A DNA stretch of 41,099 bases, taken from contig JAKBBV010000022.1 of the NCBI GenBank assembly GCA_021808285.1, positions 1 to 41,099 on the forward strand. The letters run 5' to 3'. The DNA is from Pseudomonadota bacterium (GTDB taxonomy: Bacteria > Pseudomonadota > Alphaproteobacteria > Caulobacterales > Caulobacteraceae). This document shows, in pieces, positions 6,073 through 16,389 of this stretch; the stretch's first letter is position 1; each line of letters begins with the position of its first letter. The position numbers and the translations under genes were made by a program. Below the pieces are notes generated by a model. It searched no databases and was not told the DNA's origin. It saw nothing but the letters and a program-made list of their open reading frames with translations.

Positions 6073-6789
6073 TCAGGCGGCGAGCGCCTCCAGATCGTGG
6101 ACCACGACCCGACGTGCGTTTGGCAGATCGATGGCGTGGCTGCGCGCCATCTGGCTCATGGTGCGGGACACGGTCTCTAGGGTCAGGCCCAGATGATCGG
6201 CCATATCGCACCTCGACATCGGCAGTTCGATGACCCGCGAGTGGGCGCGGCGAGACAGCTTGAGTAGAAAGCTCGCGACACGCTCCGACGCGTTCTTGCG
6301 ACCGAGAAGCAACATGTGGTCCTGAAGATCCGCAAGCTCGTGGGAAGCGAGAGTCCAGAGCTGCCGCGCGATGGCGGGGTCGCGCTCGGCGGCGCGCTCG
6401 ACGGCCGAGCGTCGCACGATCGCCACGTCGGTCTGTGTCACCGCCTCTGCGGAGAATCTGTGAACCGGCCCAAACTCCAGGCCGAAGACATCACCGGGAA
6501 GATAGAAGGCGCCGATCTGACGGCGACCATCGCTGAGCAGTCGCGTGGTGCGCACAGCCCCGGAAAGCACCTTATAGACGAAGTCGGCCTCCTCCTCCTC
6601 TCCGAACGCCTCCTCATTGGGGCTAAGGGTGAGGGTGAATCCGGGCAGGGCGAGGCCCGGTCCAAGTTCGACCAGCCGGCCACCCGTCCGGGCTGGCGCC
6701 AATTCGGTCTCCATCACCGCATCATATCCCACGGCACGCTCCCTTGGTGTGTCGAGGCAGGGGTACGCCAAGCCGGGATGGGCGGACAT
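6073..6789 (-). CDS. fixK: Crp/Fnr-family transcription activator FixK
   Basis: A 238-residue regulator. The cyclic-nucleotide-binding-like beta roll spans about residues 45-140 (KVLSGAVRTTRLLSDGRRQI, YLPGDVFGLE). A dimerisation helix runs about 145-170, and a C-terminal winged helix reads MSRCDMADHLGLTLETVSRT (about 190-209). The recognition-helix pattern E-x-x-SR is that of FNR/FixK proteins, which bind TTGA-N6-TCAA. The N-terminal cysteine cluster that holds the FNR 4Fe-4S centre is absent; only one Cys (residue 11) is near the N-terminus. It therefore fits FixK, controlled by expression through FixLJ rather than by direct oxygen sensing. AAGGAGG 8 nt upstream supports this start. It is divergent from fixL with only 23 bp between start codons. 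Confidence 0.92.
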   Translation of the reverse strand: MSAHPGLAYPCLDTPRERAVGYDAVMETELAPARTGGRLVELGPGLALPGFTLTLSPNEEAFGEEEEADFVYKVLSGAVRTTRLLSDGRRQIGAFYLPGDVFGLEFGPVHRFSAEAVTQTDVAIVRRSAVERAAERDPAIARQLWTLASHELADLQDHMLLLGRKNASERVASFLLKLSRRAHSRVIELPMSRCDMADHLGLTLETVSRTMSQMARSHAIDLPNARRVVVHDLEALAA

Positions 6790-6799
6790 TCGGGGCGCC

Positions 6800-6809
6800 T
6801 CCTTAAGGA
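6800..6809. promoter_or_regulatory. Palindrome that supplies the ribosome-binding sites of both fixK and fixL
   Basis: TCCTTAAGGA is its own reverse complement. On the minus strand it reads TTAAGGAGG before the fixK ATG (6789). On the plus strand it gives TTAAGGAC before the fixL ATG (6813). With 23 bp between the two starts, the promoters must lie inside the opposite coding regions. Confidence 0.6.
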
Positions 6810-6812
6810 CAA

Positions 6813-8396
6813 ATGCGTATCCCGAGCCAGAGCATCCGACTTGCGGCGGCGATCAGGGCTTCCTACCAACAGCTTATGCAGAGAGTGTTCCGCGCACTGG
6901 AGGACGCGCCGGCCCCGCCGTCTGGGCCGCGTCCTCTCGTCGCGTCTTATCTCCTTGGGGCGCTGGCCATCGTTCTTGGCGCCGCCGCGCGCATCGCATT
7001 GGACCCCTGGCTCGGCGATCGGGCGGCGTTCTGGTTTTTCATGCCAGCGCTTCTGGCGACGGCCGCGACAGGCGGCTGGGCGCCGACCCTGGCGGCGAGC
7101 CTCATCGCGTCGCTCCTTAGCGAGGCACTCCTCGCCCGCCATCCTCTGGTCGCCGCCGATCAGATCGACGCCGGTCTGTTCCTGACCCTGAGCCTGGTCA
7201 TTGGCCTTGCCGGCGCCCATCTCAGGCGCGTTCGATCCGACTCCGCGGAGATGAGGCGGCGCGTGGCTGATCGTCAGGCGCACCTCCAGTCGATTGTCGA
7301 TACGGCGCCGGACGCCATGCTGATCATCGATGTCGCCGGACTCGTCCAGTCATTCAGTCCGGCCGCCGAGCGGCTCTTCGGTTGGACCACGGAGGAAGTT
7401 CTGGGACGCAATGTCAGCCTGCTCATGCCGCAGGACCATGCGATCGCCCATGACAACTACCTGGCCCGCTATCTGCAGACAGGCGAGCGCCGGATCATCG
7501 GACGCCCGCGCGAGGTCATCGCCCAACACAAGAACGGGGAGCAGTTTCCAGTCCAGCTCTTTGTCGGTGAGAGCGAAGCCGCTGGCGCGCGATTCTTTAC
7601 CGGATTCATCCACGATCTAAGAGCCCGCATGGCCGCCGAAAATCGGGTTCAGGGCTTGCAGGCCGAACTCATCCATACCTCCCGGCTGTCGGCGCTCGGC
7701 GAGATGGCGGCGGCCCTCGCCCACGAACACAACCAACCGCTTTCGGCGATCTCCAACTAGCTCAAGGGCGGACGTCGGCTGCTCCTTGACGAAAACCCCG
7801 GCAGCCGCGCCCTGGAGGCGCTGGACAAGGCCGCCGATCAGTCCCTTCGCGCCGGCGAGATCATCCGTCGCTTGCGGGCTTTCGTCGCCACCGGGGAAAG
7901 CCAGCGTGAGGTCGAAAGCCTCAAGGCGTTGATCGAGGAGACCGCTGTGCTCGGACTGGTCGGCGCGCGAGAGGCGGGAGTCAGGGTTCAAACCCGTTGG
8001 GATGCGGAAGTGGACAGGGTCGTGGTGGATCGCATTCAGATCCAGCAGGTCATGCTCAACCTGTTGCGCAACGCGTTGGAAGCGATGGAGGACTCGACCC
8101 TCCGGGAACTCGAGATCGCAACTGAGCGTGGAGAAACGGGTATGGCCATGGTCACCGTCAGGGACACGGGCCCCGGCATCAGCCCGGTGATCGCAGAACG
8201 CTTGTTCCAACCCTTCACCACAACGAAGCAGAGCCGCGGGATGGGCGTCGGGCTTTCCATCTGCCGCTCGATCATCGAGGCTCACGATGGGCGCATCTGG
8301 GTCGAGCCGAACCTGCCAAAGGGGGCGGCCTTTCACTTCACCGTCCCAAGGGCCAGCCACGGCGAGAGCGGCGCCGTTCAGGGAGATCGCCTCTGA
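6813..8396 (+). pseudogene. fixL: Oxygen-sensor histidine kinase FixL, interrupted by an in-frame amber codon
   Basis: The 528-codon frame starts at ATG 6813 and would encode a heme-PAS histidine kinase. An N-terminal region with about four hydrophobic spans (43-136) is followed by a PAS domain (about 150-260). In the PAS domain, His213 (AHDNYLARY) matches the FixL proximal heme ligand, and Arg219 and Arg233 match the two heme-pocket arginines of Bradyrhizobium FixL. The H-box reads ALAHEHNQP (phospho-His304; the usual HELNQP has become HEHNQP). Codon 316 (7758-7760) is TAG where relatives have Tyr (ISNYxKG). The same frame then continues with an intact ATPase domain: NLLRNALEAM, DTGPGIS, TTTK and GMGVGLS. 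As read, the product would stop at 315 residues without a catalytic domain. A sequencing error or suppression cannot be excluded. The stop codon overlaps the fixJ start. Confidence 0.9.
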
Positions 8397-8995
8397 TGTC
8401 GACGAGGGTTCACGTCATCGACGATGACGACGCTGTGCGGGACTCCTTGGCCTTCCTCCTTGAGACGGCCGGATTCGCGGTGACGACCTATGGCTCTGGC
8501 GTCGAGTTCCTGGATCGGTTCGCTGAAGCCGAGCGAGGTTGCGTCGTCACCGACATTCGTATGCCGGGCCTGACCGGGCTTGAGCTTGCGCGCGAACTCC
8601 AGGCCAGAGGATCAGGTTTGCCGCTTATCATCATGACTGGGCACGGAGACGTACCCCTGGCGGTGGAGGCCATGAAGGCCGGCGCCCGTGATTTTATCGA
8701 GAAACCCTTTGACGATGAGACAATGATCCTCGCCGTTCGGGCGGCGCTGGCCACACTGGCCTCGACCTCAGTGACAGACCCCGAGCGCGAGCGTCTGGCG
8801 AGTCTGTCCACCCGTGAACGCCAGGTGCTTCGCGGGCTTGTGGACGGCAAGGCCAACAAGGTCATCGCTCGCGATCTGGGCATCAGCCCCCGAACCGTCG
8901 AGATTTACCGGGCCCATGTGATGACCAAAATGCAGGCGTCTAGCCTGCCGGAGCTGGTGCGAATCGCGTTGCGTGTCGGCGAGGATGGAATCTAG
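8396..8995 (+). CDS. fixJ: Two-component response regulator FixJ
   Basis: A 199-residue response regulator. The receiver domain (1-120) has the acidic cluster IDDDDA (8-13), phospho-acceptor Asp53 in VTDIRMPG, Thr in IIMTGHGD and Lys in EKPFDD. The C-terminal LuxR/NarL-type helix-turn-helix (about 135-195) contains LSTRERQVLRGLVDGKANK and ISPRTVEIYRAHVMTKM, the FixJ signature. FixJ phosphorylated by FixL activates fixK and, in relatives, other microaerobic genes. The ATG overlaps the fixL stop codon (TGATG), so translation is expected to be coupled. If FixL really terminates at 7760, fixJ would need its own ribosome access. Confidence 0.95.
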   Translation: MSTRVHVIDDDDAVRDSLAFLLETAGFAVTTYGSGVEFLDRFAEAERGCVVTDIRMPGLTGLELARELQARGSGLPLIIMTGHGDVPLAVEAMKAGARDFIEKPFDDETMILAVRAALATLASTSVTDPERERLASLSTRERQVLRGLVDGKANKVIARDLGISPRTVEIYRAHVMTKMQASSLPELVRIALRVGEDGI

Positions 8996-9052: not shown

Positions 9053-9454
9053 ATGCCGAGCCCTAGTTCAGGCCGCACCGCTGCAGAGCGACGCAAGCTT
9101 CTCGTCATCGTCGAGGATGACGAGGCGCTATCGGCGGCCCTGGCCTTCGCGTTAGAGGTCGAAGGATACGCCACCAGAGCCTATCCGGATGCCGAGAGCT
9201 TTCTCGCCGAGGCGACGACGGCTGATCCGGATGCCTTCATTCTGGACTACCGCCTCCCAGGTCTGAATGGCTTGGCGCTGCTGGACCGGATTCGACAGCG
9301 ATCGGTGACGGCTCCCGCGATCGTCATAACCACGCCGACCCCCGCAGTGATTGCGAAGGCCGCGGCGGCGAGTGCGACGATTGTCGAGAAGCCGCTCCAC
9401 GCCGGCGACCTGATGGACGTGGTGCGCCGGCTGGCCGGTCCGCCGGCTGATTGA
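9053..9454 (+). CDS. Single-domain response regulator, FixT-like by context
   Basis: A 133-residue receiver domain with no output domain. It keeps the acidic cluster VEDDEA (20-25), phospho-acceptor Asp65 in FILDYRLPG, a Thr in VITTPT and the conserved Lys in VEKPL, so it could be phosphorylated. In Caulobacter, a FixK-activated single receiver called FixT inhibits FixL autophosphorylation and gives negative feedback. The position after fixLJ and the FixK-type box upstream suggest the same job here. Orthology to FixT is inferred from context and not proven by sequence. No Shine-Dalgarno sequence is seen before the ATG and no alternative in-frame start exists nearby, so the mRNA may be leaderless. 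Confidence 0.78.
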   Translation: MPSPSSGRTAAERRKLLVIVEDDEALSAALAFALEVEGYATRAYPDAESFLAEATTADPDAFILDYRLPGLNGLALLDRIRQRSVTAPAIVITTPTPAVIAKAAAASATIVEKPLHAGDLMDVVRRLAGPPAD

Positions 9455-12770: not shown

Positions 12771-13643
12771 ATGGCCAGCCTCAAGGAACTCAGAAGCCGC
12801 ATCTCGAGCGTCGCCGCGACGCAGAAGATCACGCGCGCCCTGCAGATGGTCGCGGTGTCCAAGTTCCGCCGCGCCCGTGAGGCGGCGGAGAATGCCCGCC
12901 CCTACGCCGTGCGCATGGCCTCGGTGATCGCCAATCTGGCCGCCGGCGTCAGCGGAGCCGGCGCCCCCGCCATGCTGGTCGGGACCGGCTCGGTGCGACG
13001 CGAGCTGGTCGTTGTGGCCACCGCCGACCGCGGTCTCGCCGGCGGCTTCAACGGCGCCATCGTCCGCGCGGCGCGGGACCATATCGCCACCCGCCAAGCC
13101 GAAGGCCGCGAGGTGAGCGTGATTACCGTTGGACGCAAGGCGCGCGATCAGCTCCGCCGCCAGCTCGGAGACAGCATCATCGCCTCCATCGAGGCGGGCA
13201 ATGCGCCGTCCTTCGACAAGGCGCAGGAGGCGGCGGCGCTGGTCATGGAGCAGTTCAATTCGGGACGCGCCGACGTGGTCAGCCTGATCTTCAGCCAGTT
13301 CGTCTCCACCGTGAGCCAGAAGCCAACGATCAAACAGCTCATCCCGGCGGAGGTGAGGACCGGCGGCGACAAGATTGATCTGAAGGGCGCCGCTTATGAA
13401 TACGAACCCGAGGAGACCGCCATCCTCGAGGCCCTCCTGCCGCGCAATCTGACGACCCAGATCCTGGCCGCCCTTATGGAAAATCAGGCCGGCTTCTTCG
13501 CCTCCCAGATGGCTGCCATGGACAACGCGACCCGCAATGCGGGCGAGATGATCGCCCGCCTCACCCTGATCAAGAACCGGACCCGTCAGGCGCAAATCAC
13601 CAAGGAGTTGATCGAGATCATCTCCGGCGCCGAAGCGCTCTGA
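12771..13643 (+). CDS. atpG: ATP synthase F1 subunit gamma
   Basis: A 290-residue central rotor subunit. The N-terminal helix [20 protein letters not shown] and the C-terminal [20 protein letters not shown] form the coiled coil inside the F1 head. The internal [12 protein letters not shown] motif is characteristic. The length is normal. It lies between atpA and atpD in the F1 operon. Confidence 0.98.
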
Positions 13644-13657
13644 CCGACACGAGATAA

Positions 13658-15295
<1,638 letters not shown>

Positions 15296-15572: not shown

Positions 15573-15687
15573 CCCTGGTCCAAGCGCGGGGGACTGGGTG
15601 TGAGGGACTGGGATTGACGACGTCGCTGGGACTCGTGTCGCCAGTGGCGCAAGACGCCGTAGTTGAGTGAAGAGAGGGATGAATCAG

Positions 15688-16389
15688 ATGCGTCTCGCGA
15701 TCGCCGCGGCCCTTAGCGCCGTCAGCCTCGGGCCCTTCACCTTGGCGCAGACGTCGCCGACTCCAGCTCCCGCCTCGACGACGGCGCCTCCTGTGGCTCC
15801 GGCCGCCCCGACGTCGACATCCGCGCCGTCGGTAGCGGGCTCGGCGCCCGCCTCAGCAGCTCCGGCCGCTGCGACGGCGGCTGCCGCTCCGGAAGCCCCT
15901 CCCGCACCGCCCGGTCCCCCGACGGATCCTGCCGCCATCGCCCTTCTCGATACGCTCGAGAAGGTCTGCATCCCTGCGGTGGGTGGCGGCAATGCCGGCG
16001 CTCTCGCCAAGACCATGGGCTTCCGCAAATCGGGCGAAAACTGGGTCTATAGGCGTCCGGGATACCAACTCACGCTTCTCCCCGCCGGCTCCAATCCGCA
16101 TACCTGTCAAGTGGACGTGCTTCACCCCATCGACCAGGCCGAGCCGGCTAAGCCCCTGGTTGTGGCCCTGCACAACTGGGCGATCTACGGTCACCAATGG
16201 GCCCTGGACCGGAACGACAAGCACACCGAGGATGGTCAGGAATTCATCACCCGATCCTGGGTGCACGACGCCGACGGCAAGCATCAGGCTCTGGTTCTGA
16301 CCACCATACGCAACGCCCCGGATACGCCCGCCGGACGCAACGCGGATACCTCGGAGATGTTCTACAATCTCACCGCGACCGGGGGCTGA
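15688..16389 (+). CDS. Secreted protein with Pro/Ala-rich linker, function unknown
   Basis: About 233 residues. It has a signal peptide (MRLAIAAALSAVSLGPFTLAQ), then about 60 residues of Ala, Pro, Thr and Ser that look like a flexible linker, then a compact domain of about 145 residues. The domain has two cysteines (EKVCIPAVGGG and NPHTCQVDV) that could form a disulfide, and the motifs NWVYRRPGYQLTLLPAG, HNWAIYGHQWALDRND and TSEMFYNLTATGG. I recognise no enzymatic motif. Upstream in-frame starts exist at 15667 (GTG) and 15679 (ATG). 15688 was chosen because AGAGGG is 9 nt upstream and the signal peptide begins there. It follows atpC by about 115 nt and is not clearly part of that operon. Confidence 0.75.
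   Translation: MRLAIAAALSAVSLGPFTLAQTSPTPAPASTTAPPVAPAAPTSTSAPSVAGSAPASAAPAAATAAAAPEAPPAPPGPPTDPAAIALLDTLEKVCIPAVGGGNAGALAKTMGFRKSGENWVYRRPGYQLTLLPAGSNPHTCQVDVLHPIDQAEPAKPLVVALHNWAIYGHQWALDRNDKHTEDGQEFITRSWVHDADGKHQALVLTTIRNAPDTPAGRNADTSEMFYNLTATGG

Follow-up and report, generated by a model that had tools for sequence, protein, structure and literature searches.

An in-frame amber codon and an altered H-box in the oxygen sensor gene fixL of a Caulobacteraceae draft genome

The window, by which we mean the whole 41,099-nucleotide stretch analysed here, is contig C103 of a 2.9 Mb draft genome (105 contigs, 97.75% complete) and contains a fixL frame interrupted by a single stop codon, together with the regulatory genes expected around it. 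The features on which the analysis rests are the following:

6073 to 6789, reverse strand: fixK, a CRP/FNR-type regulator divergent from fixL (profile match), with a probable start at 6714 by comparison with G001
6804 to 6819, reverse strand: FixJ-site-like sequence between fixK and fixL, agreeing with the S. meliloti site at 11 of 16 positions (9 of 500 shuffles as good)
6813 to 8396, forward strand: fixL frame with one internal TAG (translation, profile matches)
7476 to 7628, forward strand: residues 222–272, the latter half of the heme-PAS domain, with a tip branch longer than the other 29 in a segment tree
7728 to 7730, forward strand: codon 306, His in HEHNQP, Leu in all 29 aligned relatives
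7758 to 7760, forward strand: codon 316, TAG, Tyr or Phe in all 29 aligned relatives and Leu in two of seven further loci
7761 to 8393, forward strand: catalytic half after the TAG, with a HATPase_c match (Pfam) and no further stop
8396 to 8995, forward strand: fixJ, response regulator, open frame (FixJ model 295.2 against a cut-off of 255)
9053 to 9454, forward strand: single-domain receiver adjoining fixJ, resembling FixT by its position alone and free of cysteine

The FixL PAS domain is recognised by Pfam, and the N-terminal region is hydrophobic, with a DUF4118 match below cut-off. The best of the models listed is the NCBIfam FixL model NF041777 (472.1 bits against a cut-off of 850, residues 147–515), a Rhizobiales equivalog, so the missed cut-off weighs little. 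Comparison with G001, a genome of the same genus, places the true start probably at Met22 (position 6876), and the piece before the TAG would therefore be 294 residues long rather than the 315 expected in the first-pass annotation. The G001 FixL itself ends at a contig end at residue 221, and a search for its kinase part found none. A DNA search of 60 genomes gave matches in 38, the genome itself included, the best of the others at 68% identity, while no second FixL copy was found across the draft genome.

Both the TAG within the FixL frame and the H-box HEHNQP, on which the first-pass annotation had centred, are present in the assembly. Column 316 holds Tyr in 26 of the 29 aligned FixL relatives and Phe in the other three, the 29 being the best-scoring loci of a search that matched FixL in 78 of 118 genomes, with nine distant relatives from another contig scan left out of the comparison. 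Reading seven further loci by eye gives Leu in six and Ile in one at the H-box residue, with Tyr in three, Phe in two and Leu in two at position 316. The same TAG, which the annotation had proposed to seek in related genomes, occurs in none of these 36 relatives (29 aligned and seven by eye), nor does any of the 29 aligned relatives or the seven further loci have His at H-box residue 306. Nine relative rows were flagged with some stop; the five that were opened (G070, G047, G117, G036 and G044) have their stops at or beyond gene ends, and the weak rows G029, G086, G112 and G081 lie outside the opened set. The two odd codons are 30 bases apart, within 33 bases, and the TAG cuts the frame 11 residues past the phospho-acceptor His304, within the DHp region. 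A literature search of titles and abstract openings found no report of a nonsense fixL in Caulobacterales, while clinical fixL mutations are reported in Burkholderia (PMC8406202).

The sensor half departs from its relatives over a longer stretch. The earlier statements that every other FixL feature is kept, and that the rest of the protein is normal, prove too strong, since the heme-PAS half, and above all residues 222–272, forms the longest tip branch of 30. As measured on one tree per short segment, with no test of significance, the tip branch is 0.51 against 0.28 for the next longest across residues 150–315 (sensor and H-box) and 0.80 against 0.29 for residues 222–272, ranking second of 30 for residues 150–221 and first, narrowly, for residues 273–315. 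Alignment and spacing indicate that His213, R219 and R233 are kept. The heme-PAS proximal His and distal Arg, H213 and R233, equivalent to H200 and R220 of BjFixL, are present, H200 being the proximal heme His in Bradyrhizobium FixL. By contrast with the kept residues, the equivalent of R226 of Bradyrhizobium FixL is His239, and the FG-loop G-I-G reads G-R-P in the alignment, making the FG loop and distal pocket unlike those of relatives. Neither P232 nor His267 is unique, recurring in G117 and G047, respectively, and S. meliloti FixL has Asp at position 232. Columns that are invariant in the others are odd here at six positions, and at five in each of two other relatives. Arg220, Arg206 and the FG loop are described as parts of the FixL O2 response in an extract of PMC10765370.

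Downstream of the stop the frame is open, bearing out the earlier claim of an ATPase domain free of further stops. The catalytic half ranks fourth of 30 in tip branch length, with segment 317–375 ranking fifth and segment 376–515 second. Its mean identity to relatives (0.567) is the third lowest of 30 and close to that of the sensor half (0.568); the sensor half is the better conserved of the two in all 29 relatives, in L042 by 0.004 only. Two of the six odd columns lie in the catalytic half, which by these sequence comparisons appears to be without clear decay, yet not pristine.

The claim that FixJ and FixK are intact holds, both being open frames with relatives. FixJ ranks tenth of 28 in tip branch length, in a comparison from which L042 and L043 were left out because fixJ is cut short there, and the best FixK model, NF050806 (Caulobacter), scores 222.6, below its cut-off of 300. 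The fixK frame is N-terminally extended; with its probable start, fixK would begin about 160 bases away from where fixL probably begins. The candidate FixJ-type site at 6804–6819 is plausible from its sequence, scored against the S. meliloti site quoted in an extract of PMC4999443, and the corresponding intergenic stretch reaches 11 of 16 in G001 (12 of 500 shuffles as good), 12 in L041 and 10 in each of L042 and L051. The FixK-type sites, earlier listed as intact, are weak when set against shuffled sequence, two one-mismatch sites being present where 0.40 are expected (5 of 100 shuffles have at least as many) and six relaxed sites where 4.4 are expected (25 of 100); their use as proof of an intact circuit was rejected on this ground. 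A FixK-type site at the cydA locus falls inside the gene. A one-mismatch FixK-type site at 13608–13621, near the end of atpG and some 55 bases ahead of the AtpD frame, could be due to chance. The AtpD frame (13676–15295, 539 residues) is matched by its family model from residue 59 onwards, so the protein either is extended at its N-terminus or starts later in the frame, and a 240-residue frame at 15667–16389 has no Pfam or NCBIfam match at E 0.001. The receiver at 9053–9454 scores 37.9 against the 150 bits of the NCBIfam FixT model, and a receiver gene also follows fixJ in L041, at 52% identity.

Whether the assembly carries other such stops was addressed by a codon usage screen for broken frames in the window and 400 kb from four other contigs (441 kb). 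Same-frame pairs of coding-like segments split by one stop numbered 45, of which a script removed 40 as frames shadowing other genes, and 19 pairs were read by eye. The five left were FixL and four genes that look complete and end naturally, as judged from Pfam for three of them and by eye for L146. FixL is thus the only gene of the 441-kb sample with an in-frame stop inside a domain, in a screen of limited sensitivity whose score thresholds let through 1187 of 1505 stops simulated inside genes (a test of the thresholds and not of the shadow filter), so the assembly does not appear to be full of such stops. Systematic stops in the kinases of this genome were also considered and rejected: three other kinases were flagged with a stop, and in the two opened, on C97 and C69, it lies at the natural gene end, C89:59263-59913 being outside the opened set.

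As for the respiratory context, FixLJ is reported in all four Caulobacterales studied in PMC4999443, with cco and cyd among the FixK targets of Caulobacterales. No ccoN match (cbb3 oxidase) was found in this genome, where a gap in the 97.75% complete draft could hide the gene; bd and aa3-type oxidases are present. Across the 36 genomes of the relatives search, its own included, ccoN is matched in 23 and exceeds the cut-off in 19. FixL, searched with 12 candidates scored per genome at E 1e-30, is stop-free in four of the 13 genomes that lack a ccoN match (G004, G005, G010 and G020), stopped in G000, ends at a contig end in G001 and is not matched in the other seven. As the four retain a stop-free FixL, lack of cbb3 would be permissive at most. 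The best FixL paralogue, on C97 of this genome (C97:9425-10174, locus L101), is an HEVNQP kinase with an adjoining FixJ-like regulator of its own and a sensor part cut by the contig end; it is a possible alternative FixJ partner.

The two readings that lead are those already named in the first-pass annotation, a recent loss and a sequencing error. On balance we lean towards a real and recent fixL nonsense allele, arising in a sensor that was drifting beforehand, with selection on it relaxed or changed, and leaving a fragment without the kinase domain. This is favoured by the position of the TAG in the only FixL copy found and by the abnormal H-box residue, which makes two changes in one motif, as well as by the long branch of the sensor half, the missing ccoN match and the outcome of the 441-kb screen. 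Against it, the evidence comes from a single draft genome, a catalytic half without clear decay also fits a working gene, and a local error in a read or in the assembly could produce two odd codons spaced this closely. If the allele is present in the cells, its product would be an anchored heme-PAS protein ending 11 residues after His304 and lacking both the second DHp helix and the ATPase domain, and would for that reason be incapable of autophosphorylation. FixJ would then stay unphosphorylated unless served by another kinase, low-oxygen induction of fixK would be lost, and the loss would be added to an older change of the sensor domain in a genome without detectable cbb3 oxidase.

The main rival, and a serious one although we hold it the less probable, is that the organism has an ordinary full-length FixL and that the stop arose through an error of sequencing or assembly, or is a variant of a minority strain that entered the consensus. 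Two odd codons so close together in one draft of 105 contigs, a stop-free catalytic half of only fourth branch rank and a stop seen in none of the 36 relatives would all fit such an artefact or variant; it sits less well with the 441-kb sample, in which no other in-domain stop appeared at the sensitivity given above, and with a sensor half whose unusual region extends well beyond the length that a single read error would span. It is very improbable that the stop is instead read through or suppressed to give a low level of full-length FixL, as the annotation had also allowed. The frame is open on both sides of the TAG and the catalytic half is still recognised by Pfam, but the search for amber-suppressor tRNA genes that had been proposed gave no CUA anticodon among the 37 tRNAs of the genome. 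As none of the 37 is named Ile or His the set is incomplete, so a suppressor may have been missed. The release factor 1 (RF1) model is over its cut-off, the pyrrolysine machinery was sought with PylS reaching 26.7 bits against a cut-off of 178.15, and the RNA following the TAG has no unusual fold (z 0.85; 160 of 200 shuffles fold as well or better). TAG is moreover a common terminator, ending 34 of 202 long stop-ended coding-like segments (a count that includes shadow frames and FixL's own), and with RF1 present genome-wide amber reassignment was rejected.

Equally unlikely is a split or retained sensor, in which the short heme-PAS piece is kept for a function of its own or the ATPase half is produced as a protein of its own and acts in trans. 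The piece does keep its PAS domain with His213, R219 and R233, and the second half is open for 211 codons; against this, no in-frame start follows the TAG until a TTG 37 codons further down, for which no ribosome site is seen by eye, the cut lies inside the DHp region, 11 residues past the H-box His, and the heme-PAS half is the very part with the longest branch. We give least credence, and very little, to a sensor half freed to diverge and kept alone as an anchored heme-PAS protein while FixJ is driven by another kinase, for example the FixL-like one on C97; were a kinase of this type to drive FixJ, a two-component system would have been re-wired by the cutting of its kinase. Should the preferred reading of a real nonsense allele be correct, the FixLJ-FixK oxygen switch would be caught at the onset of its loss, in a lineage without detectable cbb3 oxidase, with the sensor domain having drifted first and the kinase having been cut later. 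If the stop is an assembly error, the case is a reminder to consult the reads before taking one stop in a draft genome as a sign of a rewired circuit. Most likely this is an ordinary broken-gene case, unless sequencing reads show otherwise.

Compared with the FixL systems of Bradyrhizobium, Sinorhizobium and Caulobacter, the protein shares the heme-PAS domain, the proximal His, the R206 and R220 equivalents, the H-box His and HATPase_c, and the locus shares their layout, with fixJ directly downstream, fixK divergent and a hydrophobic N-terminal region on the sensor. It differs from known FixL in the TAG after the H-box, the HEHNQP motif, the His at the R226 equivalent, the G-R-P FG loop and the long sensor branch. 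The product of 9053–9454 resembles FixT, a receiver-type inhibitor of FixL autophosphorylation in an extract of PMC7078487, in consisting of one receiver domain and being encoded close to fixLJ, and differs in lacking the conserved FixT cysteine. As in nonsense-interrupted histidine kinase genes, there is one early stop and the remainder is open, which is the picture of a young pseudogene, in which one early stop is found while the remainder is still open. Unlike nonsense-interrupted kinases generally, the part that has drifted here is the sensor half and not the half after the stop.
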